From Notolepis coatsorum (lineage: Eukaryota > Chordata > Actinopteri > Aulopiformes > Paralepididae), in contig OZ020586.1 of NCBI GenBank assembly GCA_963971535.1, positions 77,042,703 to 77,106,702 of the forward strand: a stretch of DNA of 64,000 nucleotides, given 5' to 3'. Below, piece after piece: positions 2,662 through 63,036 of the stretch; positions within the stretch are counted from its first letter, which is position 1, and every line of letters begins with the position of its first letter. Below the pieces are notes generated by a model that had not been told where the DNA came from, did no database searches, and saw only the letters and a list, made by a program, of their open reading frames with translations. Made by a program: the position numbers and the translations under genes.

Positions 2662-3711
2662 ATGGCTGAGAACTTTGGAGCTCCCCTGCCTCTCCATGTG
2701 ACACCCAACAGCACACAGAAATCATGTTTGAGAATTGTAACACCCACCTGGCAATGATTGCCTTTGTCCTCCAAGACTCTCCAGGCAATATGCTCACCTT
2801 CTGTGAGGTAAGAACAAGCAAGCAACATATTAAGTTTCATTTGACTTTAAAAATGTTGTGATGTGAAAGCAAAATGTCCTTCTAATGTCTGATGATGCCT
2901 AATTTTCAATGTAACTTCTTTTGCAGTTGCTGGGAAATTTGGAAGCATTGATCTCAGGAAACAGAAAAGGCCTTGATGCCAAAATTAGAGTCTGCTTGTC
3001 GACCAACAAATGTTTTGTCAAGGTAAATGGAAAAAATCTTTATATCTCATTGATCATGATCACTAATTTAGTTGAACCAACATAGTTTTGGGTTAAAGAT
3101 GAATTCTAACTTGTGTGTTCAATTGTTTCCAGATTCCATCAAATCCAGAAAAACCAAACAGTAAGAAAAACTACTGGAAGCTTGACCACAGTCAAATTAC
3201 AGGGAAGATGGTGCGTCGTCACTTCAAGGGAATTCTGGACTGGTTCCCTGAGTTGGTCTCCAAAGTTATGGAGGCAGTCAGACCATCAGAGCACTACACT
3301 ACTCTCCACTCCCCTGAACCTGCAGCCTACAGAGATGTTCAGATTAAATGTGAGGTGAAGTTCAGCAGTCCTTTCTCCATCGAATCCCTCCTGAAGAAAG
3401 ACAGTCCCTCTGGCCTGGGCTCCAAACCCTCTCCTCTGTTGGGCATTTCCAGCTTGCCAGTCAGAGTAGAACAGCAGCCTTGGTGCTCAGAGAAAGGAGT
3501 TGGAACAAAGAGGAAGTTCAGCTGGGACGCTCCACCAGTGGAGATGCACATTCTTCAACCGGCAGATAGAAGTTATGCCATCTACCCAGCAGGGGGCAGT
3601 GTGGACCATGGACTCAGTGGTTCTGGAAACAGGCCAGTCAAGAGGATTCGTATGTGTGCTGAGCTCAATGCCATAGATTCATCATTCAGCCCATTTTACC
3701 AGAGGCAATGA
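2662..3711 (+). pseudogene. Type-1 divergent forkhead (FoxH1-like) gene, copy A: frameshifted, chimeric 3' end
   Basis: Three exons by comparison with the intact copies: 2662-2807, 2927-3022 and 3133-3711, with GT/AG introns. Exon 1 has lost one base around 2720 (CAGAAATCATG instead of CAGAAAAGGATG), so the usual ATG reads out of frame. The ATG at 2724 restores the forkhead frame, and a protein missing about 21 N-terminal residues could still be made. Exon 3 is open, but after R-I-R-M-C-A-E the usual 42-residue type-1 tail is replaced by about 14 foreign residues ending at 3711. The foreign tail matches the block at 56549-56669. By family logic it would be a nuclear transcription-factor-like protein, but it is probably a relic. 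Confidence 0.75.
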
Positions 3712-3837
3712 CGTTTAGATCAAGGTGAAAATCATTGGAATGTGGGCACGGCCTGTACAGCAATACTCTAGTTTTAAATGCAAATGTCTAATTCACACCT
3801 GCCCTCATGTTAACTAAATGTAGCCCCAATAGCTTAA
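3712..3837. repeat. Junction block shared with 56.55-56.67 kb
   Basis: The segment from about 3661 to 3788 is nearly identical to 56549-56669 and is also a diverged relative of the first 70 bases of the head module (ACAATGAAGTTTAGATGG-like). It replaces the normal type-1 3' end here and leads straight into the next head module. Confidence 0.6.
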
Positions 3838-5503
3838 TCATTCAACACATTATATCTGAGACAATGAAGTTTAGATGGGGTGAAAATCACTGGAATGTGG
3901 GCCAAACCATAGTAACACACAGATTTTGGTTCAACTGATATCAGGCTAAGGTTCACTCAAACTAGATTTTTATCTCAAATGTGATATCCCCAATGCATAT
4001 AATTTAACATTGAAACATTTTCTTCTTTGAATTTGAAATATTGTGTAACGTTACCGTTATCTAATTAGTAACTGGCAACTGCAGATGTCTGCCCCATGTC
4101 TATACCCCACAATGCAAAGTGTCTAACGCTATAGCTTAATTGTAGATTCTAAACATAATGAGGTAACGCAGCTACCAAATGTTATCTTTAATCAAAGTGT
4201 GTAATGTTAATCCACAACAGCGACTTTTGGTATATGACATATCAATAGAAATACATTTACAAAAATACAAATGAAATACATTTCAAATTAATTCCACAAT
4301 TCTTTGCGATAGACTTATATCAATACACAAACAAATTTAAATTGATGACATTAGATCGGGTGTAGCTAATCTAAATAGTGTGCATCATTTTCAAAACTAT
4401 ATACTGTATTTTGAGAGTAAATCAAGCATGATAAACATTCATGTTCTAATGAAGCCTGAGAAACCAAGTTTGCACTTCACCGCATAGTCCTTGTGAATCG
4501 CTAATGTCTATTTTGTAGTTGTAAACAGTGATCCCCTCATTAAAGTGGCCAATATCTGAAGAGGGCAGTGATGGATGAAGTGTGATTGTTATTATATGTA
4601 CTTAATAAGTATATAGGGTATACAATGGAAGGAATTTGTATTTTTTAAGTCTAAGATAGTGATCCATAATCAGAAAATGTCCATATTACTATACAGAGTC
4701 TAAGGCTGTTTTTCAGCTGCTTCTGTTCTAAATACACAGATCGCTATAGTCTTGGACCGTTATTCATATTCCAATGGTCCCCCTTTATCACTTCCATTGT
4801 CCTGTTTAAAGATAGAAAATAGAATTTAAATAAACAAATGAACATGACTGAGACCCAGTCTGGTACATATTAATAAACACATGAACAACATACTTCATGC
4901 ATTTTCCTCTGGAGGGACTGAATACAGTATATTTCTCACTGCTAATCTGCGATTTTAGGCAATATAGTGTTGCTATAGAAACATGTTTAAGAAATCCAAA
5001 ATCTCCCATGCTAACAAACTATTGTATGCAGCTCTACATACTAGTGATATATAAGGAGCAACAGGGAGGCAGGCCATGACATGTTTTCAGGATTCATTGT
5101 TTGTCCATTGCTTCCTGACCAAACAGATTTTTGAAGTTGACTTTCACACATTCAAAAAAGGTTTGGTTTGAGCAAGTCTATATAGGAAAACAATTTACAC
5201 AACAATAAAACTATAATATATTAAACCCAAGAGTATGGTAAGAGAGAGCTAAAAGTACAATCACCATCCATTGGTCCAGATAGGTTTGTTGGAAGTGGGC
5301 TGTTATGACGGCCATTGACCCCACCTCATCCAGATGAAAAGGCCCTCATCAACCTGGAATGCACACCTTGTAATGTTCTATTGTTCTGGCAGGACTTATA
5401 TCCAGAAGTCTGGGACTCCATCACTCCAGGTCCACAGCTCCACTGAGTGAGGTTCTGATACCACTGTGTGTGACTTGACTCTACAACCAACAAGAAGCAG
5501 AAC
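3838..5503 (+). repeat. Head module of type-1 copy B
   Basis: Same AT-rich upstream block as 1-1319 plus 2330-2661, here without the LINE, so it gives the empty-site sequence for that insertion. Copies A and B are the only direct tandem repeat of type-1 genes in the window. Confidence 0.8.
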
Positions 5504-5775
5504 ATGGCTGAGAACTTTGGAGCTCCCCTGCCTCTCCATGTGACACCCAACAGCACACAGAAATCATGTTTGAGAATTGTAACACCCACCTGGCAATGAT
5601 TGCCTTTGTCCTCCAAGACTCTCCAGGCAATATGCTCACCTTCTGTGCTGAGCCCTCAACCCTGATCTACACAAGACCCAGTGTTGCTCCTTATTTTACC
5701 AGCCGTCAGAACGGTTATGTCAATTATCCTCTACCAACATATCCCTGTGATGTTAAACGTTATTGTAAAATGTAA
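5504..5775 (+). pseudogene. Type-1 forkhead-like gene, copy B: exon 1 fused to end of exon 3
   Basis: Exon 1 begins normally (ATG 5504) with the same one-base loss as copy A. A deletion then joins the end of exon 1 (T-F-C) directly to the last part of exon 3 (A-E-P-S-T-L-I-Y), removing both introns, exon 2 and most of exon 3. TGTG/TGTGCTGAG microhomology lies at the joint. From ATG 5566 the fusion stays in frame for 69 codons and ends like an intact type-1 protein. The forkhead core (recognition helix, wings) and eh1-like motif are gone, so no DNA-binding role is expected. Confidence 0.8.
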
Positions 5776-7270
5776 ATGTAAAATGTTTTTTTTTGTATAC
5801 ATGCCACTTCTGCACTTATTTGTACATTATATTTGCTTACTTATCTTGGCACCTTTTTCAATAAAACACAAAAACAAACATTGTTACTTACTGCTATCAT
5901 TTATTTGTATGCATACAGATCTGAGATGAAGAATTTACAACTGAACATAATCAGAATCAGAAAGATCTTTATTGCCAAGTAAGTTTGCACACATACAAGG
6001 AATTTGTATTGGTTGTTGCAACATTAACAGACAATTAAAGTAGAATCATCAGTCATATATAAACTAAATTAGAATAAAAGTACAATAGAATATGGGCTGT
6101 ACAATTGTGCAGTATTGTGCAAAAAGTATGAATAATCACGAAAAACTAACTATTAAAATAGTTTTACAGAATTACTTAATTGATTTAATAACATATTGTA
6201 AAATATTATTATCCTGTATAAGTATAATACATGTGTATCAGGCTCAGTAATGTACCTTCCATACACCATTGACCTCTCACCTCAAGATATATGAATGAAA
6301 ACTGGCTCAATTGAACCACTCCACAGCTGATTTATGGTAGTGTGTTGCCGTTTTGGGCCAATACCATGCTGTTTTAGGCATGCGGTACAAATGTGTTGTC
6401 ACAAATATATATTAGCCTATTCCATGGATTAGGTGTGGCTTTAAAGTTGAGACTTTTTTGGAATCCGGTGATGAAGCTTCCCACTTGGCAGGCCAAAAAC
6501 ATCTGATTGGTTATTGATGCATGGAGCTGTTGTTTTGGTCAATCAGATTTGAATCTGATAATAAATGAGTTATGGCTATATGCCTTAATCTGGTAAATGT
6601 AATGTTGCTTTGTGGTGGAATTTCCCTTTACAAATGGAATTACAGACACAGAATGTTCTCAATGTAAGATTGTGAACCACTAAAATTAACATTAAATTAA
6701 CAAATAGTAGTGTAACAGTAGGTGTAACAGGCTGTTGGGATTTGTTGCGTGTGTCTTCATTAGTGGAATTAATTTATTAACAATTGACAGAAAGGAATAC
6801 ATAAATATATCAATAATTGAAATGTCATTATAGAATTGAAAATGTTTCGTTTTCTCATGTATAAATATTGAATCTCAATCACAAGGTAACATTGACATTT
6901 TTTATACCACATATGATGTTGGTGGCCGACAGCAGGGTTCATCCCCGGAACATTTATGGCCAGAAGACCAAATTCCACAACATAATCTAGTATTATTAAT
7001 CAGAGTATTATTATATATTATATTTGGTCTACATTGATGCAGTTTACCTCTTGAGAGTGAACAACTAGTTAACTATTAACAAGGTATAATATAATACAAA
7101 TACAAAATAATATATGATAGCAAAACATAGTTTGGTTTAATATTTTATTGAAAAAAATATCTTCACAAGAAGGCAAGTATATATATAACATATTTACAGA
7201 TTATGACATAACACAGGGACATTTGAGACAGAATAATCGTCCTGGGTTGGAAAGGAGCAATTCTGGGTCT
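5776..7270. repeat. Tail module between convergent 3' ends (copy B / copy C)
   Basis: AT-rich non-coding block found between every pair of convergent 3' ends. It starts with the type-1 3' UTR and AATAAA (5860-5865). It contains an AATCAGAATCAGAAAGATC segment resembling a dispersed fish repeat, and ends with the type-2 3' UTR, whose antisense AATAAA lies about 120 bp from the type-2 stop. A 70-95 codon antisense frame (6769-6978 here) recurs, but I see no domain and consider it chance. Confidence 0.75.
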
Positions 7271-7518
7271 TCAGATCACATAGATCAGGAATGAGGGATT
7301 AGCACACATACGAATCCTCTTGACTGGCCTGTTTCCAGAACCACTGAGTACATGGTCCCCACTGCCCCCTGCTGGGTAGAACTGGTCACTTCTACCTGCA
7401 GGTTGAAGAATGTGAATCTCCACAGGTGGAGCGTCCCAGCTGAACTTTCTGTGATTTGACTGTGGTCAAGCTTCCAGTAGTTTTTAATATTGTTTGGTTT
7501 ACCTGGATTTGATGGAAT
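7271..7518 (-). pseudogene. Type-2 forkhead-like gene, copy C: exon 3 remnant
   Basis: Only exon 3 survives. About 241 bp are missing inside it: the joint runs from the I-P-S-N-P..H-S-Q-I-T-E part straight to the region before S-W-D-A-P-P-V-E and shifts frame, so the eh1-like motif is lost. Exons 1 and 2 are absent; about 30 bp upstream of exon 3 the sequence switches to an LTR-element fragment. Confidence 0.8.
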
Positions 7519-7550
7519 CTGGAAAGAATTTAACACGTTATAATTCAACT

Positions 7551-11023: not shown

Positions 11024-11970
11024 TCAGATCACATAGATCAGGAATGAGGGATTAGCACACATACGAATCCTCTTGACTGGCCTGTTTCCAGAACCACTGA
11101 GTACATGGTCCACACTGCCCCCTGCTGGGTAGAACTGGTCACTTCTACCTGCAGGTTGAAGAATGTGAATCTCCACAGGTGGAGCGTCCCAGCTGAACTT
11201 TCTCTTTGTTCCAACTCCTTTCTCTGAGCACCATGGCTGCTGTTCTACTCTGACTGGCAGGCTGGAAATACCCAGAGGAGATGGTTTGGAACCCAGGCCA
11301 GAGGGACTGTCTTTTTTCAGGAGCGATTCGATTGGAGAAAGGACTGCTGAACTTCACCTCACATTTAATCTGAACATCCAAAATGGAGACCAACTCGGGG
11401 AACCAGTCCATAACTCCCTTGAAGTGACGGCGCACCATCTTCTCTGTGATTTGACTGTGGTCAAGCTTCCAGTAGTTTTTAATATTGTTTGGTTTACCTG
11501 GATTTGATGGAATCTGGAAATAATTTAACACGTTATAATTCAACTAGGCCCCAGAGACAATGTTGGTTCAACTAAACTGTAGTAATCACGATCAATGAGA
11601 TATAAATATGTTTTTAAATTTACCTTGACAAAACATTTGTTGGTTGACAAGCAGACTCTAATGTTGGCCTCAATGCTTATTCCTTTTCCTGACATCAATG
11701 CTGCCAATTGTTCCATTATCTGTAGAAAAGTGAAAGAGAATTAGGTATTTGGACATTATGAGGACAGTATGCTATCATATCACAACATGTTTAATAGTTT
11801 AAAGGTTTATAGCTGGTTCTTACCTCAAAGAAGGTGAGCATATTGTCTGGACAGTCTTGGAGGACAAAGGCAATCATTGCCAGGTAGGTGCTACAATTCT
11901 CAACCATCATTTTCCGGGTGCTGTTGGATGTCACATGGAGAGGCAGGGGAGCTCCAAAGTTCTCAGCCAT
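11024..11970 (-). pseudogene. Type-2 forkhead-like gene, copy D: frameshift at the eh1-like motif
   Basis: Exons 11824-11970, 11624-11719 and 11024-11513 with GT/AG introns; start and forkhead coding are intact. Exon 3 has one extra base around 11330 (GATTGGAG for GATGGAG), which turns F-S-I-E-S-L-L into F-S-N-R-I-A and ends translation at 11145, about 203 residues in total. The protein would keep the forkhead-like region but lose the repressor-like motif and natural C-terminus. The same insertion is in copy E, so it predates their duplication. It may be a pseudogene or a truncated isoform. Confidence 0.75.
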
Positions 11971-13134: not shown

Positions 13135-13146
13135 CATGGTTCTTAC

Positions 13147-15388: not shown

Positions 15389-15917
15389 GTTCTGTATCGT
15401 TAGTGGCTTAGCTTGGCATCACTACTGCACAAGGGAGGCCAAGCGGAGCCACTTGGCTGACAAATACACCCCGCTGACAGCCCCCCAAAACCATCAGAAC
15501 AGGGAGGGCCGAGCCCCCCCGACCCCCCCTAATGGAGGGTATCCCCCCTATTAGAGGCTTCACGGGAAGGCGACGGACCCGACCGTGCGAAGAGGCACTC
15601 AAGCAACTTAACGCACAGGGTGAGCAGACCGTGGCTTGACCCCACGACTACACACACGCACAACCCGCATGCCACCCGGGAACGAACGGAGGAACAACCT
15701 CGTTACTGCCCCCAGAATCACGGGGCCAAGGGCAAACCCAACCCCGTGGCAAGGCCGTAGCAGCGGAGCGCGAAGGAAGACCCAGACCCACCAAAAGGAC
15801 TGGACTCCCTGGAATGGGGGCCCGGAGAAGTCCATGATGCCAGCATCAAGACCCCACCAGGTGGGCACGTAGTGCCCCGCCCCCCACATCGCCAGCGTAT
15901 TCGGACAAAGGCCCCTC

Positions 15918-16036
15918 AGTTACTGCACCTGGTATTCCCAGGCGGAACCCCATCCAAGTACTAACCAGGCCAGAACCTGCTTAGCTTCCGAGATCGGACG
16001 AGATCGGGCGTGTTCAGGTTGGTATGGCCGTAAGCC
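15918..16036 (-). rRNA. 5S rRNA-like sequence 1
   Basis: Read on the minus strand this is about 119 nt of 5S rRNA. It starts GGCTTACGGCCATACCA, includes GATCTCGGAAGCTAAGCAGG and CCTGGTTAGTACTTGGATGG, and ends near CCTGGGAATACCAGGTGC. The A-box region is nearly canonical. The C-box has changes (ATGGGGTTCC for ATGGGAGACC). It lacks a normal 5S repeat context and sits inside a transposon, so it is probably a captured copy or 5S-derived SINE head rather than a working gene. Confidence 0.75.
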
Positions 16037-21457: not shown

Positions 21458-22404
21458 TCAGATCACATAGATCAGGAATGAGGGATTAGCACACATACGA
21501 ATCCTCTTGACTGGCCTGTTTCCAGAACCACTGAGTACATGGTCCACACTGCCCCCTGCTGGGTAGAACTGGTCACTTCTACCTGCAGGTTGAAGAATGT
21601 GAATCTCCACAGGTGGAGCGTCCCAGCTGAACTTTCTCTTTGTTCCAACTCCTTTCTCTGAGCACCATGGCTGCTGTTCTACTCTGACTGGCAGGCTGGA
21701 AATACCCAGAGGAGATGGTTTGGAACCCAGGCCAGAGGGACTGTCTTTTTTCAGGAGCGATTCGATTGGAGAAAGGACTGCTGAACTTCACCTCACATTT
21801 AATCTGAACATCCAAAATGGAGACCAACTCGGGGAACCAGTCCATAACTCCCTTGAAGTGACGGCGCACCATCTTCTCTGTGATTTGACTGTGGTCAAGC
21901 TTCCAGTAGTTTTTAATATTGTTTGGTTTACCTGGATTTGATGGAATCTGGAAATAATTTAACACGTTATAATTCAACTAGGCCCCAGAGACAATGTTGG
22001 TTCAACTAAACTGTAGTTATCACGATCAATGAGATATAAATATGTTTTTAAATTTACCTTGACAAAACATTTGTTGGTTGACAAGCAGACTCTAATGTTG
22101 GCCTCAATGCTTATTCCTTTTCCTGACATCAATGCTGCCAATTGTTCCATTATCTGTAGAAAAGTGAAAGAGAATTAGGTATTTGGACATTATGAGGACA
22201 GTATGCTATCATATCACAACATGTTTAATAGTTTAAAGGTTTATAGCTGGTTCTTACCTCAAAGAAGGTGAGCATATTGTCTGGACAGTCTTGGAGGACA
22301 AAGGCAATCATTGCCAGGTAGGTGCTACAATTCTCAACCATCATTTTCCGGGTGCTGTTGGATGTCACATGGAGAGGCAGGGGAGCTCCAAAGTTCTCAG
22401 CCAT
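21458..22404 (-). pseudogene. Type-2 forkhead-like gene, copy E: same frameshift as copy D
   Basis: Exons 22258-22404, 22058-22153 and 21458-21947. Like copy D it has the one-base insertion at the eh1-like motif in exon 3 and an F-to-V change just after the second methionine of M-M-F-E. D and E, with their flanks, are near-identical duplicates about 10.4 kb apart. The forkhead region is open; the natural C-terminus is lost. Confidence 0.75.
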
Positions 22405-26505: not shown

Positions 26506-27451
26506 TCAGATCACATAGATCAGGAATGAGGGATTAGCACACATACGAATCCTCTTGACTGGCCTGTTTCCAGAACCACTGAGTACATGGTCCACACTGC
26601 CCCCTGCTGGGTAGAACTGGTCACTTCTACCTGCAGGTTGAAGAATGTGAATCTCCACAGGTGGAGCGTCCCAGCTGAACTTTCTCTTTGTTCCAACTCC
26701 TTTCTCTGAGCACCATGGCTGCTGTTCTACTCTGACTGGCAGGCTGGAAATACCCAGAGGAGATGGTTTGGAACCCAGGCCAGAGGGACTGTCTTTCTTC
26801 AGGAGCGATTCGATGGAGAAAGGACTGCTGAACTTCACCTCACATTTAATCTGAACATCCAAAATGGAGACCAACTCGGGGAACCAGTCCATAACTCCCT
26901 TGAAGTGACTGCGCACCATCTTCTCTGTGATTTGACTGTGGTCAAGCTTCCAGTAGTTTTTAATATTGTTTGGTTTACCTGGATTTGATGGAATCTGGAA
27001 ATAATTTAACACGTTATAATTCAACTAGGCCCCAGAGACAATGTTGGTTCAACTAAACTGTAGTTATCACGATCAATGAGATATAAATATGTTTTTAAAT
27101 TTACCTTGACAAAACATTTGTTGGTTGACAAGCAGACTCTAATGTTGGTCTCAATGCTTATTCCTTTTCCTGACATCAATGCTGCCAATTGTTCCATTAT
27201 CTGTAGAAAAGTGAAAGAGAATTAGGTATTTGGACATTATGAGGACAGTATGCTATCATATCACAACATGTTTAATAGTTTAAAGGTTTATAGCTGGTTC
27301 TTACCTCAAAGAAGGTGAGCATATTGTCTGGACAGTCTTGGAGGACAAAGGCAATCATTGCCAGGTAGGTGCTACAATTCTCAAACATCATTTTCCGGGT
27401 GCTGTTGGATGTCACATGGAGAGGCAGGGGAGCTCCAAAGTTCTCAGCCAT
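26506..27451 (-). CDS. Type-2 divergent forkhead (FoxH1-like) protein, copy F, intact
   Basis: Exons 27305-27451, 27105-27200 and 26506-26994 (147, 96 and 489 nt; phase-0 GT/AG introns of 104 and 110 bp) encode 243 aa. Residues about 29-100 align with a forkhead domain: Y-L-A-M-I-A-F-V-L-Q-D helix 1, T-N-I-R-V-C-L-S in the recognition-helix position, T-N-K-C-F-V-K-I-P, and N-Y-W-K-L-D in the wing. The canonical R-H-N-L-S is R-V-C-L-S and the Trp before it is lost, so canonical DNA contacts are doubtful. F-S-I-E-S-L-L (about 140-146) resembles an eh1 Groucho-binding motif; K-R-I-R may be a nuclear signal. This copy has R-to-S in M-V-R-S-H-F-K-G. It is divergent from type-1 copy M. FoxH1 kinship is inferred from the domain. 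Confidence 0.8.
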
Positions 27452-29569
27452 GTTCTGCTTCTTGTTGGTTGTAGAGTCAAGTCACACAGTGCATCAGAAC
27501 CTCACTCAGTGGAGCTGTGGACCTGGACTGATGGAGTCCCAGACCTCTGATATAAGTCCTGCCAGAACAATAGAACATTACATTTTCTTCTTTGAATTTT
27601 AAATATTGTGTAACGTTACCGTTATCTAATTAGTAACTGGAAACTGCAGATGTCTGCCCCATGTCTATACCCCACAATGCAAAGTGTCTAACGCTATAGC
27701 TTAATTGTAGATTCTAAACATAATGAGGTAACGCAGCTACCAAATGTTATCTTTAATCAAAGTGTGTAATGTTAATCCACAACAGCGACTTTTGGTATAT
27801 GACATATCAATAGAAATACATTTACAAGGCGGTTAGGTGGTCGAGCGGAGATTGCGTTCGTCACCAGCCCCGGAGCTGATTTGGATTTGCCTGTTCGAAT
27901 CCAGCTCACAGCTCCGGGGTTGTCACCAGCTTGGCTGGCCGTCTGCACTGATACGATTGGCTGTATCAGAGGGTGGGAGAAGCTGGCGGGGTGGGTCCGG
28001 GTCGTTGTAAACAGCGACTCCTACAGTTCGGTCGGGGCGCCTGCTAAGCGCGGATTGGACGTGAGGGGGATAGTGTGGTCCTCCCACACGCTACGCCCTC
28101 TCAGTGAGAATCCGCGCTGCCAGGTGAAAAGAAGCGGTGATTGGCTGGACGTGTGTCGGAGGAAGCACGTGGTAGCCTCCACTCTCCCATATGATCTGAC
28201 TGTAGGGGGTAAAGCGCAGCGACCAGGAAGGGACTGGGAATTGGCATACGACTAACATTGGGATGGGGAGAAAATCGGAGGAAAATGGAGGGGGAAAAAG
28301 ACCAAAAAAAAAAAAAAAATACATTTACAAAAATACAAATGAAATACATTTCAAATTAATTCCACAATTCTTTGCGATAGACTTATATCAATACACAAAC
28401 ACATTTAAATTGATGACATTAGATCGGGTGTAGCTAATCTAAATAGTGTGCATCATTTTCAAAACTATATACTGTATTTTGAGAGTAAATCAAGCATAAT
28501 AAACATTCATGTTCTAATGAAGCCTGAGAAACCAAGTTTGCACTTCACCGCATAGGTCCTTGTGAATCGCTAATGTCTATTTTGTAGTTGTAAACAGTGA
28601 TCCCCTCATTAAAGTGGCCAATATCTGAAGAGGGCAGTGATGGATGAAGTGATTGTTATTATATGTACTTAATAAGTATATAGGGTATACAATGGAAGGA
28701 ATTTGTATTTCTTTAGTCTAAGATAGTGATCCATAATCAGAAAATGTCCATATTACTATACAGAGTCTAAGGCTGTTTTTCAGCTGCTTCTGTTCTAAAT
28801 ACACAGATCGCTATAGTCTTGGACCGTTATTCATATTCCAATGGTCCCCCTTTATCACTTCCATTGTCCTGTTTAAAGATAGAAAATAGAATTTAAATAA
28901 CAAATGAACATGACTGAGACCCAGTCTGGTACATATTAATAAACACATGAACAACATACTTCATGCATTTTCCTCTGGAGGGACTGAATACAGTATATTT
29001 CTTACTGCTAATCTGCGATTTTAGGCAATATAGTGTTGCTATAGAAACATGTTTAAGAAATCCAAAATCTCCCATGCTAACAAACTATTGTATGCAGCTC
29101 TACAGACTAGTGATATATAAGGAGCAACAGGGAGGCAGGCCATGACATGTTTTCAGGATTCATTGTTTGTCCATTGCTTCCTGACCAAACAGATTTTTGA
29201 AGTTGAATTTCACACATTCAAAAAAGGTTTGGTTTGAGCAAGTCTATATATGAAAACAATTTACACGACAATAAAACTATAATATATTAAACCCAAGAGT
29301 ATGGTAAGAGAGAGCTAAAAGTACAATCACCATCCATTGGTCCAGATAGGTTTGTTGGAAGTGGGCTGTTATGACGGCCATTGACCCCACCTCATCCAGA
29401 TGAAAGGCCCCTCATCAACCTGGAATGCACACCTTGTAATGTTCTATTGTTCTGGCAGGACTTATATCCAGAAGTCTGGGACTCCATCACTCCAGGTCCA
29501 CAGCTCCACTGAGTGAGGTTCTGATACCACTGTGTGTGACTTGACTCTACAACCAACAAGAAGCAGAAC
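27452..29569. promoter_or_regulatory. Shared head-to-head upstream region of copies F (-) and M (+)
   Basis: The interval between two intact start codons on opposite strands. Without the SINE and its target duplication it is about 1.6 kb, the same as the 36286-37898 interval. Both ends carry the same roughly 140 bp leader in inverted orientation (ATTGTTCTGGCAGGACTTAT). Bidirectional promoter use is inferred from layout; no core element is certain. Confidence 0.55.
27828..28316 (+). mobile_element. tRNA-derived SINE with target-site duplication
   Basis: The head looks like a tRNA promoter: A-box-like GGTGGTCGAGCGG (about 27836) and B-box-like TGTTCGAATCC (about 27892). A body with the fish-SINE-like phrase GTGTGTCGGAGGAAGCACG follows, then a poly-A tail. 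The 14 bp AAATACATTTACAA is duplicated at 27814-27827 and 28317-28330; other head modules carry it once. This is a complete, fairly young insertion between the divergent promoters of copies F and M. The 124-codon frame inside is not a gene. Confidence 0.88.
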
Positions 29570-30694
29570 ATGGCTGAGAACTTTGGAGCTCCCCTGCCTC
29601 TCCATGTGACACCCAACAGCACACAGAAAAGGATGTTTGAGAATTGTAACACCCACCTGGCAATGATTGCCTTTGTCCTCCAAGACTCTCCAGGCAATAT
29701 GCTCACCTTCTGTGAGGTAAGAACAAGCAAGCAACATATTAAGTTTCATTTGACTTTAAAAATGTTGTGATGTGAAAGCAAAATGTCCTTCTAATGTCTG
29801 ATGATGCCTAATTTTCAATGTAACTTATTTGCAGTTGCTGGGAAATTTGGAAGCATTGATCTCAGGAAACAGAAAAGGCCTTGATGCCAAAATTAGAGTC
29901 TGCTTGTCGACCAACAAATGTTTTGTCAAGGTAAATGGAAAAAACCTTTATATCTCATTGATCATGATCACTAATTTAGTTGAACCAACATAGTTTTGGG
30001 TTAAAGATGAATTCTAACTTGTGTGTTCAATTGTTTCCAGATTCCATCAAATCCAGAAAAACCAAACAGTAAGAAAAACTACTGGAAGCTTGACCACAGT
30101 CAAATTACAGGGAAGATGGTGCGTCGTCACTTCAAGGGAATTCTGGACTGGTTCCCTGAGTTGGTCTCCAAAGTTATGGAGGCAGTCAGACCATCAGAGC
30201 ACTACACTACTCTCCACTCCCCTGAACCTGCAGCCTACAGAGATGTTCAGATTAAATGTGAGGTGAAGTTCAGCAGTCCTTTCTCCATCGAATCCCTCCT
30301 GAAGAAAGACAGTCCCTCTGGCCTGGGCTCCAAACCATCTCCTCTGTTGGGCATTTCCAGCCTGCCAGTCAGAGTAGAACAGCAGCCTTGGTGCTCAGAG
30401 AAAGGAGTTGGAACAAAGAGGAAGTTCAGCTGGGACGCTCCACCAGTGGAGATGCACATTCTTCAACCGGCAGGTAGAAGTTATGCCATCTACCCAGCAG
30501 GGGGCAGTGTGGACCATGGACTCAGTGGTTCTGGAAACAGGCCAGTCAAGAGGATTCGTATGTGTGCTGAGCCCTCAACCCTGATCTACACAAGACCCAG
30601 TGTTGCTCCTTATTTTACCAGCCGTCAGAACGGTTATGTCAATTATCCTCTACCAACATATCCCTGTGATGTTAAACGTTATTGTAAAATGTAA
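29570..30694 (+). CDS. Type-1 divergent forkhead (FoxH1-like) protein, copy M, intact
   Basis: Exons 29570-29716, 29835-29930 and 30041-30694 (147, 96 and 654 nt; introns 118 and 110 bp, GT/AG, phase 0) encode 298 aa. Forkhead-like region about 29-100: H-L-A-M-I-A-F-V-L-Q-D-S-P helix 1, D-A-K-I-R-V-C-L-S-T-N-K-C-F-V-K for helix 3, K-N-Y-W-K-L-D for the wing. The usual R-H-N is R70-V71-C72. Next come D-W-F-P-E-L-V, a 22-residue linker absent from type 2, the eh1-like F-S-I-E-S-L-L (162-168), basic patches (T-K-R-K-F, V-K-R-I-R-M) and a Tyr/Pro-rich tail. A FoxH1 relative would act in the nucleus on Nodal/Smad targets; no clear Smad-interaction motif is visible here, so that role is not shown. 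Confidence 0.8.
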
Positions 30695-33816: not shown

Positions 33817-33880
33817 TGGGTGTTTTCAAAAGGCTGAAAAACGCTTATTATTGATTGGTGATGTTCTTCTTATGCAGTTG

Positions 33881-34245
<365 letters not shown>

Positions 34246-37898: not shown

Positions 37899-39024
37899 AT
37901 GGCTGAGAACTTTGGAGCTCCCCTGCCTCTCCATGTGACACCCAACAGCACACAGAAAAGGATGTTTGAGAATTGTAACACCCACCTGGCAATGATTGCC
38001 TTTGTCCTCCAAGACTCTCCAGGCAATATGCTCACCTTCTGTGAGGTAAGAACAAGCAAGCAACATATTAAGTTTCATTTGACTTTAAAAATGTTGTGAT
38101 GTGAAAGCAAAATGTCCTTCTAATGTCTGATGATGTCTAATTTTCAATGTAACTTCTTTTGCAGTTGCTGGGAAATTTGGAAGCATTGATCTCAGGAAAC
38201 AGAAAAGGCCTTGATGCCAAAATTAGAGTCTGCTTGTCGACCAACAAATGTTTTGTCAAGGTAAATGGAAAAAATCTTTATATCTCATTGATCATGATCA
38301 CTAATTTAGTTGAACCAACATAGTTTTGGGTTAAAGATGAATTCTAACTTGTGTGTTCAATTGTTTCCAGATTCCATCAAATCCAGAAAAACCAAACAGT
38401 AAGAAAAACTACTGGAAGCTTGACCACAGTCAAATTACAGGGAAGATGGTGCGTCGTCACTTCAAGGGAATTCTGGACTGGTTCCCTGAGTTGGTCTCCA
38501 AAGTTATGGAGGCAGTCAGACCATCAGAGCACTACACTACTCTCCACTCCCCTGAACCTGCAGCCTACAGAGATGTTCAGATTAAATGTGAGGTGAAGTT
38601 CAGCAGTCCTTTCTCCATCGAATCCCTCCTGAAGAAAGACAGTCCCTCTGGCCTGGGCTCCAAACCATCTCCTCTGTTGGGCATTTCCAGCCTGCCAGTC
38701 AGAGTAGAACAGCAGCCTTGGTGCTCAGAGAAAGGAGTTGGAACAAAGAGGAAGTTCAGCTGGGACGCTCCACCAGTGGAGATGCACATTCTTCAACCGG
38801 CAGGTAGAAGTTATGCCATCTACCCAGCAGGGGGCAGTGTGGACCATGGACTCAGTGGTTCTGGAAACAGGCCAGTCAAGAGGATTCGTATGTGTGCTGA
38901 GCCCTCAACCCTGATCTACACAAGACCCAGTGTTGCTCCTTATTTTACCAGCCGTCAGAACGGTTATGTCAATTATCCTCTACCAACATATCCCTGTGAT
39001 GTTAAACGTTATTGTAAAATGTAA
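37899..39024 (+). CDS. Type-1 divergent forkhead (FoxH1-like) protein, copy N, intact
   Basis: Exons 37899-38045, 38165-38260 and 38371-39024 encode 298 aa. The exon 3 product appears identical to that of copy M, 8.3 kb away, implying recent duplication or gene conversion. Layout: helix 1 L-A-M-I-A-F-V-L-Q-D, altered recognition helix I-R-V-C-L-S, wing N-Y-W-K-L-D, D-W-F-P-E-L-V, type-1-specific linker, F-S-I-E-S-L-L, basic V-K-R-I-R-M and a Tyr-rich tail. Upstream it shares the head module with type-2 copy G; downstream it converges on copy H. Confidence 0.8.
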
Positions 39025-40516: not shown

Positions 40517-40698
40517 TCAGATCACATAGATCAGGAATGAGGGATTAGCACACATACGAATCCTCTTGACTGGCCTGTTTCCAGAACCACTGAGTACATG
40601 GTCCACACTGCCCCCTGCTGGGTAGAACTGGTCACTTCTACCTGCAGGTTGAAGAATGTGAATCTCCACAGGTGGAGCGTCCCAGCTGAACTCTCTCT

Positions 40699-41516
40699 TT
40701 GGATGATACACAACTGTACATATCTGCTGAACCAAATGATACAGCGATTAGCTCCATTACAGACTGCTTACTGGCAATAAATAAATGGATGAGTAAGAAC
40801 TTCCTGAAACTAAACGAGAACAAAACTGAAATTCTAATTATCGGCTCCAAAACTAAAAAAGAAACATTAATAAAGAACCTGGGGGGACTAACCCCTTGGA
40901 TCAAATCTGAGGTCACTAGTCTTGGGGTTATCATAGATTCAGAACTGAACTTCAATTCTCATATTAGCAAAGTGACGAAAACATCGTTCTTCCATCTCAG
41001 AAATATAGCAAAAGTACGACCATTTATTAATCAGAACGATGCTGAGAAGCTAATTCATGCATTCATATCTAGCCGGTTAGACTACTGTAATGCACTTTTC
41101 ACAGGTCTCCCTAAGAAAACCACAGAGAGGCTTCAGCTAATCCAAAACTCTGCAGCCCTAGAACCAAAAGGAGAGAGCACATTAGTCCAGTCCTAGCCGC
41201 TTTACACTGGCTTCCTGTAACATTTAGAATTGACTTTAAGGTCCTTCTCCTTACATACAAAGCTCTAAATGGACAGGGACCTAGCTACATCGCCAACACT
41301 CTAATAAATTACACACCAGCAAGAACACTGCGATCATCAGCTGCTGGACTACTAGAGGCTCCCAGAAGCAGTCAAAAGAGGATCGGTAATGCAGCCTTTA
41401 TCAACTATGCCCCAAAACTATGGAACAAACTACCCCAAAACATCAGGGAAGCCAACTCGCTAGACATCTTTAAAAGACAGCTTAAAACCTATCTCTTTGC
41501 TCAGGCATTTCACTGA
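40699..41516 (+). pseudogene. LINE reverse-transcriptase remnant in copy H
   Basis: The first frame (40699-41196) carries D-D-T-Q-L-Y, N-E-N-K-T-E-I-L-I and S-R-L-D-Y-C-N-A-L-F. It then shifts through the 11 bp deletion, and the other frame continues to 41516 with L-W-N-K-L-P and F-K-R-Q-L-K-T-Y-L-F. No endonuclease. Confidence 0.8.
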
Positions 41517-42176
41517 TAGATATCTGCTACCAACTAGTGGCAAGAGGAAACATCAGGGATATCCTGACACAACTTGTATTTATTCTTACCCTGCCTACTC
41601 TTTTACACTGCCTATCAAATTCATGTGTCGGTTATTGCACTTTTTACTTCTTACTGATGACTATTTTTAAACTGAATCATTTTAAACTATTCTTATTATT
41701 TGCTAGATCCAAATGTGAAACACTGATTATTTATGACTATTTTTAAACTGAATCATTTTATTCTTATTATTTGCTAGATCCAAATGTGAAACACTGTGAT
41801 TATTTGTTCATGAATTACAGGAGTATTACTGAATAGAGAGCCTATTAGGATGCTAGATCCTAATGTGAAACACTGTGATTTGCCATATCTTGCTATGCTC
41901 GCTCATGCCTGTATTTTTTATGTCCGTTCTATTTTATAATTTTTTGACTATTTTTAAACTGAATCATTTTAAACTATTTTTACTATTTGTGTTACTGAAA
42001 ACTGTAAGCGGAGAGCCTATTGGGATGCTAGATCCTAATGTGAAACACTGTGATTCTACCTGTCTATCTTTTTATGCTCGCTTATGCCTGTATTTTTTGC
42101 TGTTGTGAAGCACTTTGAACTGCAACCTCTGTATGAAAAGTGCTATACAAATAAAGTTATTATTATTATTATTATT
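40701..42176 (+). mobile_element. L2-like LINE, 5' truncated, inside copy H
   Basis: Starts at the catalytic region (D-D-T-Q-L-Y-I), contains the rest of the reverse transcriptase, a 3' UTR with internally repeated GCTAGATCCTAATGTGAAAC motifs, a conserved L2-type end (GCACTTTGAACTGCAACC, AAGTGCTATACAAATAAAG) and an ATT tandem tail. No clear target duplication. It has an 11 bp deletion near 41157 compared with the copy at 45581-46947. Confidence 0.88.
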
Positions 42177-42938
42177 GTTCCAACTCCTTTCTCTGAGCAC
42201 CATGGCTGCTGTTCTACTCTGACTGGCAGGCTGGAAATACCCAGAGGAGATGGTTTGGAACCCAGGCCAGAGGGACTGTCTTTCTTCAGGAGCGATTCGA
42301 TGGAGAAAGGACTGCTGAACTTCACCTCACATTTAATCTGAACATCCAAAATGGAGACCAACTCGGGGAACCAGTCCATAACTCCCTTGAAGTGACGGCG
42401 CACCATCTTCTCTGTGATTTGACTGTGGTCAAGCTTCCAGTAGTTTTTAATATTGTTTGGTTTACCTGGATTTGATGGAATCTGGAAAGAATTTAACACG
42501 TTATAATTCAACTAGGCCTCAGAGACAATGTTGGTTCAACTAAACTGTAGTTATCACGATCAATGAGATATAAATATGTTTTTAAATTTACCTTGACAAA
42601 ACATTTGTTGGTTGACAAGCAGACTCTAATGTTGGTCTCAATGCTTCTTCCTTTTCCTGACATCAATGCTGCCAATTGTTCCATTATCTGTAGAAAAGTG
42701 AAAGAGAATTAGGTATTTGGACATTATGAGGACAGTATGCTATCATATCACAACATGTTTAATAGTTTAAAGGTTTATAGCTGGTTCTTACCTCAAAGAA
42801 GGTGAGCATATTGTCTGGACAGTCTTGGAGGACAAAGGCAATCATTGCCAGGTAGGTGCTACAATTCTCAAACATCATTTTCCGGGTGCTGTTGGATGTC
42901 ACATGGAGAGGCAGGGGAGCTCCAAAGTTCTCAGCCAT

Positions 42939-45580: not shown

Positions 45581-46947
45581 ACAAAACTGAAATTCTAATT
45601 ATCGGCTCCAAAACTAAAAAAGAAACATTAATAAAGAACCTGGGGGGACTAACCCCTTGGATCAAATCTGAGGTCACTAGTCTTGGGGTTATCATAGATT
45701 CAGAACTGAACTTCAATTCTCATATTAGCAAAGTGACGAAAACATCGTTCTTCCATCTCAGAAATATAGCAAAAGTACGACCATTTATTAATCAGAACGA
45801 TGCTGAGAAGCTAATTCATGCATTCATATCTAGCCGGTTAGACTACTGTAATGCACTTTTCACAGGTCTCCCTAAGAAAACCACAGAGAGGCTTCAGCTA
45901 ATCCAAAACTCTGCAGCCCGACTGCTAACTAGAACCAAAAGGAGAGAGCACATTAGTCCAGTCCTAGCCGCTTTACACTGGCTTCCTGTAACATTTAGAA
46001 TTGACTTTAAGGTCCTTCTCCTTACATACAAAGCTCTAAATGGACAGGGACCTAGCTACATCGCCAACACTCTAATAAATTACACACCAGCAAGAACACT
46101 GCGATCATCAGCTGCTGGACTACTAGAGGCTCCCAGAAGCAGTCAAAAGAGGATCGGTAATGCAGCCTTTATCAACTATGCCCCAAAACTATGGAACAAA
46201 CTACCCCAAAACATCAGGGAAGCCAACTCGCTAGACATCTTTAAAAGACAGCTTAAAACCTATCTCTTTGCTCAGGCATTTCACTGATAGATATCTGCTA
46301 CCAACTAGTGGCAAGAGGAAACATCAGGGATATCCTGACACAACTTGTATTTATTCTTACCCTGCCTACTCTTTTACACTGCCTATCAAATTCATGTGTC
46401 GGTTATTGCACTTTTTACTTCTTACTGATGACTATTTTTAAACTGAATCATTTTAAACTATTCTTATTATTTGCTAGATCCAAATGTGAAACACTGATTA
46501 TTTATGACTATTTTTAAACTGAATCATTTTATTCTTATTATTTGCTAGATCCAAATGTGAAACACTGTGATTATTTGTTCATGAATTACAGGAGTATTAC
46601 TGAATAGAGAGCCTATTAGGATGCTAGATCCTAATGTGAAACACTGTGATTTGCCATATCTTGCTATGCTCGCTCATGCCTGTATTTTTTATGTCCGTTC
46701 TATTTTATAATTTTTTGACTATTTTTAAACTGAATCATTTTAAACTATTTTTACTATTTGTGTTACTGAAAACTGTAAGCGGAGAGCCTATTGGGATGCT
46801 AGATCCTAATGTGAAACACTGTGATTCTACCTGTCTATCTTTTTATGCTCGCTTATGCCTGTATTTTTTGCTGTTGTGAAGCACTTTGAACTGCAACCTC
46901 TGTATGAAAAGTGCTATACAAATAAAGTTATTATTATTATTATTATT
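45581..46947 (+). mobile_element. L2-like LINE inside copy I, left end deleted
   Basis: Same element and same right-hand junction with type-2 exon 3 as at 40701-42176, so it is a duplicated insertion, not a second hit. The left about 120 bp are missing, but it keeps the 11 bp (CCGACTGCTAACT region near 45918) lost from the other copy. Confidence 0.88.
45733..46287 (+). pseudogene. LINE reverse-transcriptase C-terminal remnant in copy I
   Basis: 184-codon frame from T-K-T-S-F-F-H-L-R-N-I-A through A-A-R-L-L-T-R-T and L-H-W-L-P-V to the natural end, the uninterrupted version of the frame broken at 41.16 kb. Confidence 0.8.
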
Positions 46948-47709
46948 GTTCCAACTCCTTTCTCTGAGCACCATGGCTGCTGTTCTACTCTGACTGGCAG
47001 GCTGGAAATACCCAGAGGAGATGGTTTGGAACCCAGGCCAGAGGGACTGTCTTTCTTCAGGAGCGATTCGATGGAGAAAGGACTGCTGAACTTCACCTCA
47101 CATTTAATCTGAACATCCAAAATGGAGACCAACTCGGGGAACCAGTCCATAACTCCCTTGAAGTGACGGCGCACCATCTTCTCTGTGATTTGACTGTGGT
47201 CAAGCTTCCAGTAGTTTTTAATATTGTTTGGTTTACCTGGATTTGATGGAATCTGGAAAGAATTTAACACGTTATAATTCAACTAGGCCTCAGAGACAAT
47301 GTTGGTTCAACTAAACTGTAGTTATCACGATCAATGAGATATAAATATGTTTTTAAATTTACCTTGACAAAACATTTGTTGGTTGACAAGCAGACTCTAA
47401 TGTTGGTCTCAATGCTTCTTCCTTTTCCTGACATCAATGCTGCCAATTGTTCCATTATCTGTAGAAAAGTGAAAGAGAATTAGGTATTTGGACATTATGA
47501 GGACAGTATGCTATCATATCACAACATGTTTAATAGTTTAAAGGTTTATAGCTGGTTCTTACCTCAAAGAAGGTGAGCATATTGTCTGGACAGTCTTGGA
47601 GGACAAAGGCAATCATTGCCAGGTAGGTGCTACAATTCTCAAACATCATTTTCCGGGTGCTGTTGGATGTCACATGGAGAGGCAGGGGAGCTCCAAAGTT
47701 CTCAGCCAT
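46948..47709 (-). pseudogene. Type-2 forkhead-like gene, copy I: 3' part replaced by LINE
   Basis: Exons 47563-47709, 47363-47458 and 46948-47252 (first 305 nt of exon 3). The remaining 184 nt of exon 3, stop codon and 3' UTR start are lost by a deletion running from the LINE into the tail module. Exons 1-2 and the forkhead region are open. Near-identical to copy H over shared sequence, 4771 bp apart. Confidence 0.85.
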
Positions 47710-50482: not shown

Positions 50483-51428
50483 TCAGATCACATAGATCAG
50501 GAATGAGGGATTAGCACACATACGAATCCTCTTGACTGGCCTGTTTCCAGAACCACTGAGTACATGGTCCACACTGCCCCCTGCTGGGTAGAACTGGTCA
50601 CTTCTACCTGCAGGTTGAAGAATGTGAATCTCCACAGGTGGAGCGTCCCAGCTGAACTTTCTCTTTGTTCCAACTCCTTTCTCTGAGCACCATGGCTGCT
50701 GTTCTACTCTGACTGGCAGGCTGGAAATACCCAGAGGAGATGGTTTGGAACCCAGGCCAGAGGGACTGTCTTTCTTCAGGAGCGATTCGATGGAGAAAGG
50801 ACTGCTGAACTTCACCTCACATTTAATCTGAACATCCAAAATGGAGACCAACTCGGGGAACCAGTCCATAACTCCCTTGAAGTGACGGCGCACCATCTTC
50901 TCTGTGATTTGACTGTGGTCAAGCTTCCAGTAGTTTTTAATATTGTTTGGTTTACCTGGATTTGATGGAATCTGGAAAGAATTTAACACGTTATAATTCA
51001 ACTAGGCCTCAGAGACAATGTTGGTTCAACTAAACTGTAGTTATCACGATCAATGAGATATAAATATGTTTTTAAATTTACCTTGACAAAACATTTGTTG
51101 GTTGACAAGCAGACTCTAATGTTGGTCTCAATGCTTCTTCCTTTTCCTGACATCAATGCTGCCAATTGTTCCATTATCTGTAGAAAAGTGAAAGAGAATT
51201 AGGTATTTGGACATTATGAGGACAGTATGCTATCATATCACAACATGTTTAATAGTTTAAAGGTTTATAGCTGGTTCTTACCTCAAAGAAGGTGAGCATA
51301 TTGTCTGGACAGTCTTGGAGGACAAAGGCAATCATTGCCAGGTAGGTGCTACAATTCTCAAACATCATTTTCCGGGTGCTGTTGGATGTCACATGGAGAG
51401 GCAGGGGAGCTCCAAAGTTCTCAGCCAT
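50483..51428 (-). CDS. Type-2 divergent forkhead (FoxH1-like) protein, copy J, intact
   Basis: Exons 51282-51428, 51082-51177 and 50483-50971 encode 243 aa with normal GT/AG junctions. Exon 3 has the common type-2 sequence M-V-R-R-H-F-K-G-V-M-D-W-F-P-E-L-V. Unlike F and G it is not paired with a type-1 gene: upstream lie the long type-2 flank, the foldback element and a hybrid fragment, so its control region differs. It is the only intact copy in the right half of the window, and the LINE of H and I is absent from its exon 3. Confidence 0.8.
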
Positions 51429-54204: not shown

Positions 54205-55149
54205 TCAGATCACATAGATCAGGAATGAGGGATTAGCACACATACGAATCCTCTTGACTGGCCTGTTTCCAGAACCACTGAGTACATGGTCCACACTGCC
54301 CCCTGCTGGGTAGAACTGGTCACTTCTACCTGCAGGTTGAAGAATGTGAATCTCCACAGGTGGAGCGTCCCAGCTGAACTTTCTCTTTGTTCCAACTCCT
54401 TTCTCTGAGCACCAAGGCTGCTGTTCTACTCTGACTGGCAGGCTGGAAATACCCAGAGGAGATGGTTTGGAACCCAGGCCAGAGGGACTGTCTTTCTTCA
54501 GGAGCGATTCGATGGAGAAAGGACTGCTGAACTTCACCTCACATTTAATCTGAACATCCAAAATGGAGACCAACTCGGGGAACCAGTCCATAACTCCCTT
54601 GAAGTGACGGCGCACCATCTTCTCTGTGATTTGACTGTGGTCAAGCTTCCAGTAGTTTTTAATATTGTTTGGTTTACCTGGATTTGATGGAATCTGGAAA
54701 GAATTTAACACGTTATAATTCAACTAGGCCTCAGAGACAATGTTGGTTCAACTAAACTGTAGTTATCACGATCAATGAGATATAAATATGTTTTTAAATT
54801 TACCTTGACAAAACATTTTTGGATGACAAGCAGACTCTAATGTTGGTCTCAATGCTTCTTCCTTTTCCTGACATCAATGCTGCCAATTGTTCCATTATCT
54901 GTAGAAAAGTGAAAGAGAATTAGGTATTTGGACATTATGAGGACAGTATGCTATCATATCACAACATGTTTAATAGTTTAAAGGTTTATAGCTGGTTCTT
55001 ACCTCAAAGAAGGTGAGCATATTGTCTGGACAGTCTTGGAGGACAAAGGCAATCATTGCCAGGTAGGTGCTACAATTCTCAAACATCATTTTCCGGGTGC
55101 TGTTGGATGTCACATGGAGAGGCAGGGGAGCTCCAAAGTTCTCAGCCAT
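54205..55149 (-). pseudogene. Type-2 forkhead-like gene, copy K: frameshift in exon 2
   Basis: Exons 55003-55149, 54804-54898 and 54205-54693. Exon 2 is 95 nt instead of 96: around 54815-54825 the sequence encoding S-T-N-K-C-F-V-K has lost one base (TTTTTGGATGAC for TTTGTTGGTTGAC). This breaks the frame right after the recognition-helix position. Exon 3 remains fully open, so the lesion is young. Copy L has the same lesion. Confidence 0.8.
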
Positions 55150-60821: not shown

Positions 60822-60849
60822 TTGCAACATTAACAGACAATTAAAGTAG
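58045..60849 (+). pseudogene. Fused L1 ORF1-ORF2 remnant
   Basis: ORF1 (from 58045) begins [10 protein letters not shown] and has a long heptad-like helix (about 58130-58440). It then shifts frame just before the typical [10 protein letters not shown] segment (58464 on). From about 58555 the reverse transcriptase follows: [30 protein letters not shown] and Y-A-D-D-L-L-I-F (59062). Stops lie at 58981 and 59945 and shifts near 59310 and 60110. The C-terminal segment H-M-Y-W-D-C-P-P-V is in the last frame. Dead element, catalytic Asp pair still present. Confidence 0.85.
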
Positions 60850-62091
60850 AATCATCAGTCATATATAAACTAAATTAGAATAAAAGTACAATAGAATATG
60901 GGCTGTACAATTGTGCAGTATTGTGCAAAAAGTATGAATAATCACGAAAAACTAACTATTAAAATAGTTTTACAGAATTACTTAATTGATTTAATAACAT
61001 ATTGTAAATATTATTGACCAATGTTATTATCCTGTATAAGTATAATACATGTGTATCAGGCTCAGTAATGTACCTTCCATACACCATTGACCTCTCACCT
61101 CAAGATATATGAATGAAAACAGGCTCAATTGAACCACTCCACAGCTGATTTATGGTAGTGTGTTGCCGTTTTGGGCCAATACCATGCTGTTTTAGGCATG
61201 CGGTACAAATGTGTTGTCACAAATATATATTAGCCTATTCCATGGATTAGGTGTGGCTTTAAAGTTGAGACTTTTTTGGAATCCGGTGATGAAGCTTCCC
61301 ACTTGGCAGGCCAAAAACATCTGATTGGTTATTGATGCATGGAGCTGTTGTTTTGGTCAATCAGATTTGAATCTGATAATAAATGAGTTATGGCTATATG
61401 CCTTAATCTGGTAAATGTAATGTTGCTTTGTGGTGGAATTTCCCTTTACAAATGGAATTACAGACACAGAATGTTCTCAATGTAAGATTGTGAACCACTA
61501 AAATTAACATTAAATTAACAAATAGTAGTGTAACAGTAGGTGTAACAGGCTGTTGGGATTTGTTGCGTGTGTCTTCATTAGTGGAATTAATTTATTAACA
61601 TTTGACAGAAAGGAATACAATAAATATATCAATAATTTATATGTCATTATAGAATTGAAAATGTTTCGTTTTCTCATGTATAAATATTGAATCTCAATCA
61701 CAAGGTAACATTGACATTTTTTATACCACATATGATGTTGGTGGCCGACAGCAGGGTTCATCCCCGGAACATTTATGGCCAGAAGACCAAATTCCACAAC
61801 ATAATCTAGTATTATTAATCAGAGTATTATTATATATTATATTTGGTCTACATTGATGCAGTTTACCTATTGAGAGTTAACAACTAGTTAACTATTAACA
61901 AGGTATAATACAATACAAATACAAAATAATATATGATAGCAAAACATAGTTTGGTTTAATATTTTATTGAAAAAAATATCTTCACAAGAAGGCAAGTATA
62001 TATATATATCATATTTACAGATTATGACATAACACAGGGACATTTGAGACAGAATAATCGTCCTGGGTTGGAAAGGAGCAATTCTGGGTCT
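60822..62091. repeat. Tail module 3' of copy L
   Basis: Entered at GCAACATTAACAG after the L1-like element and complete to the type-2 3' UTR. Confidence 0.75.
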
Positions 62092-63036
62092 TCAGATCAC
62101 ATAGATCAGGAATGAGGGATTAGCACACATACGAATCCTCTTGACTGGCCTGTTTCCAGAACCACTGAGTACATGGTCCACACTGCCCCCTGCTGGGTAG
62201 AACTGGTCACTTCTACCTGCAGGTTGAAGAATGTGAATCTCCACAGGTGGAGCGTCCCAGCTGAACTTTCTCTTTGTTCCAACTCCTTTCTCTGAGCACC
62301 AAGGCTGCTGTTCTACTCTGACTGGCAGGCTGGAAATACCCAGAGGAGATGGTTTGGAACCCAGGCCAGAGGGACTGTCTTTCTTCAGGAGCGATTCGAT
62401 GGAGAAAGGACTGCTGAACTTCACCTCACATTTAATCTGAACATCCAAAATGGAGACCAACTCGGGGAACCAGTCCATAACTCCCTTGAATTGACGGCGC
62501 ACCATCTTCTCTGTGATTTGACTGTGGTCAAGCTTCCAGTAGTTTTTAATATTGTTTGGTTTACCTGGATTTGATGGAATCTGGAAAGAATTTAACACGT
62601 TATAATTCAACTAGGCCTCAGAGACAATGTTGGTTCAACTAAACTGTAGTTATCACGATCAATGAGATATAAATATGTTTTTAAATTTACCTTGACAAAA
62701 CATTTTTGGATGACAAGCAGACTCTAATGTTGGTCTCAATGCTTCTTCCTTTTCCTGACATCAATGCTGCCAATTGTTCCATTATCTGTAGAAAAGTGAA
62801 AGAGAATTAGGTATTTGGACATTATGAGGACAGTATGCTATCATATCACAACATGTTTAATAGTTTAAAGGTTTATAGCTGGTTCTTACCTCAAAGAAGG
62901 TGAGCATATTGTCTGGACAGTCTTGGAGGACAAAGGCAATCATTGCCAGGTAGGTGCTACAATTCTCAAACATCATTTTCCGGGTGCTGTTGGATGTCAC
63001 ATGGAGAGGCAGGGGAGCTCCAAAGTTCTCAGCCAT
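62092..63036 (-). pseudogene. Type-2 forkhead-like gene, copy L: same exon 2 frameshift as copy K
   Basis: Exons 62890-63036, 62691-62785 (95 nt) and 62092-62580. Carries the one-base loss of copy K in exon 2 plus its own H-to-Q change in R-R-Q-F-K-G. Exon 3 is open. K and L are sisters 7.9 kb apart; the L1-like element lies between them. Confidence 0.8.

Follow-up and report, generated by a model that had tools for sequence, protein, structure and literature searches.

Closest Described Systems

Macrosatellites of the DUX4/D4Z4 type are made of head-to-tail units of kilobase length, each with a transcription-factor reading frame. The locus described here, in the fish Notolepis coatsorum, resembles them in carrying such frames in head-to-tail kilobase units; the DUX4/D4Z4-type units, however, encode a homeodomain in one intronless gene apiece, whereas this locus holds a pair of forkhead genes with introns. 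The stretch analyzed, called the window below, comprises 64,000 nucleotides (G000:C7:77042703-77106702) of a 3.42-Gb genome and is the worn, more decayed edge of an array of approximately 0.58 Mb on one chromosome. The array genes are paralogues of FoxH1 and belong to a widespread, poorly studied teleost family, and what is new is the occurrence of this unstudied family at macrosatellite scale in one species. We put a probability of roughly 0.5 on the reading that a Smad-blind, repressor-type pair of FoxH1 paralogues has been amplified like a macrosatellite; array and family are well established, and the function is offered as a hypothesis.

The other systems for comparison are forkhead proteins. 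Passages of PMC6664792 attribute to the EH1 motif of FoxH1 a Nodal-independent repression through Groucho/TLE. Xenopus FoxH3 is presented, in the available part of PMC1939712, as a FoxH1 paralogue without eh1 that is predicted to act with Smads. By that partial account FoxH3, like the teleost family, has shed one of FoxH1's two output modules, but the losses are opposite: FoxH3 dropped eh1, whereas the teleost family kept eh1 and dropped the Smad motif. FoxH1 and the array genes are alike in their introns, domain, eh1-like motif, and non-aromatic helix-2 residue; FoxH1 proteins are mostly 430-580 amino acids long with the PPNK motif and the recognition His, whereas the array genes encode 243-298 amino acids and have neither. 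The teleost family is homologous to the array copies along almost the entire protein (best identity 57% over 97%) and shares with them an RVCLS helix, an eh1-like block, length, and C-terminal homology. The other species listed, however, have one to a few members each as opposed to dozens in the array, and the helix Asn of 109/120 relatives is Ala or Thr in the array copies. Among the papers listed by searches of the open-licence PMC literature on the family names, tandem FoxH1 paralogues, and fish Fox copy number, none is a study of the teleost family or of such an array; one, PMC2924321, names members as genes of a map interval.

Relationship to FoxH1

Profile, tree, fold, and introns together confirm that the array genes are FoxH1 paralogues, in agreement with the first-pass annotation, which had proposed a divergent FoxH1-like forkhead family from the letters of the window. 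The best support comes from the shared introns. The two introns inside the domain of the type 1 gene (types 1 and 2 being the two genes of the pair) equal in position and phase the introns of this genome's canonical FoxH1, which lies on another contig (C29:37.145-37.167 Mb). The genome-wide forkhead list contains no other exon match confined to the FoxH1-like stretch 21-64. The spliced products match the Pfam Forkhead profile with E values of 5.9e-9 and 2.3e-9 (36.4 and 37.6 bits; curated cut-off, 27); Pfam found nothing on the exon-3 frames alone, so the spliced products are required. By sequence, FoxH1 from fish, human, and frog supplies the best three solved structures (E 2e-12 to 7e-10), with other Fox structures at 6e-8 or weaker. 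A tree of 49 domains recovers the family (support 100/100) and, with equal support (100/100), separates the family plus FoxH1 from the seven other Fox chains included; the family may branch before or within vertebrate FoxH1. Inside the family, support of 87/94 places the array copies with the spiny-rayed sample, away from smelt and salmonids, and their precise position has low support (34/69). The winged-helix fold was seen in an AlphaFold2 model of the relative P0001, which is 57% identical to type 1 and is not itself a window protein (predicted local distance difference test score approximately 80-96 over residues 21-130), and the best five Foldseek matches of this model are FoxH1. The canonical FoxH1 is itself tandemly duplicated (G000:C29:37145280-37166999; loci L039, L040, and L043), with approximately 18.8 kb between copies and the third exon open in both.

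Members of the teleost family appear as Si:ch211-239d6.2, Zgc:113424, and si:rp71-45k5.2 and, inconsistently, as FoxI1-ema, FoxQ1, FoxC2, FoxG1, or FoxH1(-like); in the P0001-P0120 listing, the labels given to this single family include FoxI1-ema, I3-A, Q1, C1, C2, G1, B1, D1, L3, and H1. Gene lists that use these names may therefore mislead. Motifs were compared between 131 family proteins (120 listed and 11 more) and 120 listed FoxH1 proteins. The Smad-interaction motif PPNK is absent from all 131 family proteins and from types 1 and 2 and is present in 117/120 FoxH1 proteins; the RHNLS helix occurs in 0/131 and 120/120, respectively. An eh1-like (Groucho/TLE) motif is found in 129/131 family and 118/120 FoxH1 proteins and reads FSIESLL in both array types. 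The exact helix-3 pattern of the family is missing in 15 of its proteins, approximately 10 of which begin at exon 3, while 2 are without exon 2 and 3 have letter differences. The base-reading triad of FoxH1 is given in the accessible part of PMC9701222 as Asp-Arg-His. An Asn/Asp-Arg-His triad was not found in helix 3 of the array genes, where type 1 has Ala-Arg-Val and type 2 has Thr-Arg-Val or Ala-Arg-Val. The family triad is mostly Asn-Arg-Val (Asn 109/120, Arg 119/122, Val 115/123), and His at position i+4 occurs in none of the 123 family rows with a residue there. Of the 36 positions whose residue is shared by 95% or more of the family, type 1 retains 35 and type 2 retains 33. Among relatives on short contigs, whose source codes we take to denote read assemblies, 8/20 have all three exons joined, as would be expected of spliced transcripts.

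In zebrafish, si:rp71-45k5.2 and zgc:113424 adjoin in one map interval according to the portion of PMC2924321 seen, and a small cluster may therefore be old, membership being judged from family names only. The neighborhood there, from the same portion, includes ndrg1, bmp8, and macf1. A search for this synteny placed Ndr family matches on C9, C44, C45, and C3585 and, 97 Mb away on C7, at 174 Mb; conservation of the neighborhood is therefore either lacking or not discernible. An ovary-biased ricefield eel "foxh1" was considered as a family member and rejected, as it is described in the part of PMC10531137 seen as a 510-amino-acid protein with a Smad domain; for spotted scat foxh1, the available text of PMC9403048 does not decide membership.

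Array Architecture

Exon mapping of the window placed 12 near-complete copies of a three-exon forkhead gene (3 of type 1, all on the + strand, and 9 of type 2, all on the - strand) and approximately 10 further fragments, every intron of the 12 having GT/AG ends. Five copies are open, and the other seven are interrupted: in two, the same reverse-transcriptase-like insert (Pfam RVT_1, 19.9 bits, under the cut-off) splits exon 3, and five have a one-base frame change. The count made from the letters alone holds, namely at least 15 copies or large fragments, first and last ATG at 2662 and 63036, products of 298 and 243 amino acids, and exactly five fully open copies. The features of the window are as follows.

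29570..30694, + strand: type 1 gene, open, 298 amino acids (exons 29570-29716, 29835-29930, 30041-30694; exon mapping and spliced translation)
37899..39024, + strand: type 1 gene, open, 298 amino acids, protein identical to that of the copy at 29570
2662..3664, + strand: type 1 copy, one-base deletion in exon 1, exon 3 truncated
26506..27451, - strand: type 2 gene, open, 243 amino acids
35340..36285, - strand: type 2 gene, open, 243 amino acids
50483..51428, - strand: type 2 gene, open, 243 amino acids (exons 51282-51428, 51082-51177, 50483-50971)
11024..11970, - strand: type 2 copy, one-base insertion in exon 3
21458..22404, - strand: type 2 copy, one-base insertion in exon 3
54205..55149, - strand: type 2 copy, one-base deletion in exon 2
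62092..63036, - strand: type 2 copy, one-base deletion in exon 2
40517..42938, - strand: type 2 copy, exon 3 cut by reverse-transcriptase-like insert (40702-42174)
46946..47709, - strand: type 2 copy, exon 3 cut beside reverse-transcriptase-like insert (45582-46945); no exon-3 tail found past the insert
27452..29569, no strand: region common to the divergent type 2/type 1 pair, with both putative proximal promoters
5644..7450, no strand: repeated spacer module where type 1 and type 2 tails face each other (convergent side of the unit)

The array is a direct tandem whose unit is an oppositely transcribed gene pair, arranged head-to-head and tail-to-tail. Self-comparison of the window gave 157 pairs of repeats 300 bp or longer; the direct pairs are approximately 95-99.9% identical, with some neighboring units at 99.8-99.9%, and 74% of the window has a second copy inside it in direct orientation and 22% in inverted orientation. 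All matches between like units are direct, and the inverted matches of at least 300 bp join type 1 to type 2 only, are of gene length, and are 85-94% identical. The long, near-identical inverted arms expected of a sex-linked or germline palindromic amplicon did not appear in this comparison, and near-identical palindromes were rejected. The first-pass annotation had called the array inverted and palindrome-rich, which fails on this point; its convergent and divergent pairs are real as the gene pair carried by each tandem unit. Its assignment of every type 1 gene to the + strand and every type 2 gene to the - strand stands for the window and the main array but not for an outlying broken pair that is turned round, with a type 1-like copy at C7:76.431 Mb (-) and a type 2-like copy at 76.448 Mb (+). 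Across 23 type 1 loci, the final 120 bp upstream of the ATG do not vary, and types 1 and 2 differ by 4.6% over 200 bp upstream versus 19-24% in their introns; the low upstream divergence would be explained equally by gene conversion and by a promoter that is shared and constrained.

A genome search with the type 1 protein returned 219 matches, not all of which are listed. Those listed at 76.431-77.133 Mb, the bulk from 76.557 Mb, include 63 exon-3 matches on the + strand and 52 on the -, counts that are lower bounds and are not gene numbers, as one broken copy may count in two frames. At this extent, the earlier description of the family as amplified was an understatement. The unit is mostly approximately 6.76 kb, with one + gene and one - gene, at 76.82-76.95 Mb, and other stretches have periods of approximately 3.57, 3.73, and 6.11 kb. 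The flank at 76.540-76.550 Mb holds no copy, and 5′ fragments are still present at 77.134-77.144 Mb. Among the matches listed, none to the type 1 protein falls in approximately 63 kb inside the array (G000:C7:76982579-77045820). An isolated broken type 1 copy (L078, C7:68324700-68327700) lies 8 Mb off the array and is 93% identical to type 1 over 761 bp.

Of the full-span copies read, 59/68 are open, a fraction biased upward because most loci were picked for good matches. The 68 are made up of 23 type 1, 8 second-class type 1, and 37 type 2 copies; outside them stand 7 partial type 1 and 4 partial type 2 copies, plus both insert-cut copies and the broken type 1 copy that begins at 2662. Among the best-scoring 30 type 1 loci by exon 3, 23 have all three exons and 23/23 are open, with 298 amino acids in 22 (2 being the open window copies) and 295 in one. 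The 8 loci of other type 1 classes comprise 6 open copies (294 amino acids, with a different end), 1 broken, and 1 truncated. For type 2, 34 loci were fetched and 30 span the gene, 27/30 being open, or 30/37 with 7 window copies.

Three further features of the window lie apart from the gene units. A non-repeated stretch within the array has two 5S rRNA matches on the - strand (15917-16035 and 16696-16813; 94.4 and 66.6 bits), remains of a non-LTR (long terminal repeat) retrotransposon lie between array units at 57976-60849 on the + strand (RVT_1 E 6.8e-19, zf-RVT E 3.9e-6), and a long CT-rich simple repeat at 33826-34352 produces artificial open frames.

Selection and Alternative Explanations

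Several observations weigh against a Smad-blind repressor pair maintained in many copies. Substitutions among recent copies are not significantly different from neutrality: the nine type 2 copies of the window differ at 8 nonsynonymous and 2 synonymous sites, which is the neutral expectation, and the ratio of nonsynonymous to synonymous polymorphism (pN/pS) array-wide is 0.46 for type 1 rows (13 and 8 differences, p = 0.11), 0.75 for open type 2 copies (22 and 8, p = 0.50), and not significantly below 1 when pooled (p = 0.12). Three stops occur within the aligned part of ten - strand copies at 76.585-76.639 Mb, and the open fraction is inflated by the choice of loci noted above. A VIA-align fold comparison ties FoxH1 with other forkheads. 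Finally, repression of miR-430 is independent of the EH1 motif by the accessible account in PMC6664792, and eh1 alone is therefore no proof of repressor use.

With selection among recent copies undetectable, passive amplification stays a serious rival, to which we assign a substantial minority chance. A once-useful pair would have been trapped in a fast-turnover tandem repeat, with copies open mainly because they are young and homogenized and with most of them silent passengers. The neutral ratios just given, the numerous broken and fragmentary copies, and the adjoining units of 99.8-99.9% identity all fit this explanation. The older divergence, however, does show constraint on exon 3, where types 1 and 2 differ with nonsynonymous divergence (dN) of 0.067 and synonymous divergence (dS) of 0.166 (dN/dS approximately 0.40, p = 0.008). 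The family-conserved residues are also mostly retained, and the 120 bp before the ATG are invariant, although gene conversion could explain the latter. The first-pass annotation had named a lack of transcripts and a dN/dS near 1 across intact copies as evidence against its own idea; this holds in part, neutrality being found among the window type 2 copies, and exon 3 between the types was found constrained.

That the array was selected to change its DNA-reading helix, as in a selfish or sexually antagonistic locus, appears improbable. The difference between types is greatest in exon 2, where helices 2 and 3 are encoded (dN 0.240, dS 0.077; exon 1, 0.072 and 0.034), and when exons 1-2 are set against exon 3, the nonsynonymous/synonymous ratios differ at p = 0.004-0.014, on counts rounded to integers. 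The excess of dN over dS in exons 1-2 is, however, not significant alone (p = 0.12-0.31), and positive selection on these exons was considered and is not claimed. Intron divergence of 19-24% is close to the exon 2 dN, so lost constraint is enough to explain exon 2. An assembly artefact, in which haplotypes or collapsed-then-expanded repeats raise the apparent copy number, would account for the near-identical units but is highly improbable given the private inserts, deletions, and unit types that distinguish copies, the different periods in separate stretches, the variety of coding sequences (9 different ones among 24 type 1 rows, one locus being entered twice, and 19 among 30 open type 2 copies), and the placement of all listed array matches on a single 209-Mb contig.

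Proposed Function and Significance

For the reading of an amplified, Smad-blind repressor pair, we propose that tandem duplication, presumably by unequal exchange, multiplied an oppositely transcribed pair of teleost FoxH1-paralogue genes to the present array with its dozens of intact copies, which would provide a high dosage if transcribed. Relative to FoxH1, the proteins retain a forkhead (winged-helix) domain, folded by prediction, and the eh1-like motif; their Smad-interaction motif and recognition-helix His are gone, and the array copies lack the Asn/Asp at position i as well. They may thus be Smad-blind repressor or antagonist relatives of FoxH1 whose choice of DNA is altered or weakened. 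Keeping eh1 while dropping the Smad motif would be expected to yield a repressor or antagonist deaf to Nodal signaling. We infer that the array copies may be transcribed, may repress through TLE, and may have a role in the egg or germline. That this forkhead macrosatellite provides the egg or germline with Smad-blind, TLE-recruiting FoxH1 relatives at high dose, countering or retuning maternal FoxH1/Nodal control, is a stronger proposal that we regard as unlikely. If true, it would make the array a fish analogue of DUX-type arrays drawn from a different protein family, with helices diversifying between two gene types.

Arrays with dozens of open transcription-factor genes are unusual. A teleost family with inconsistent names is now tied to FoxH1 by introns, motifs, and tree, with its Smad motif lost and its repressor motif kept, and the array provides a concrete system for asking what causes a gene related to an early-development regulator to be amplified.

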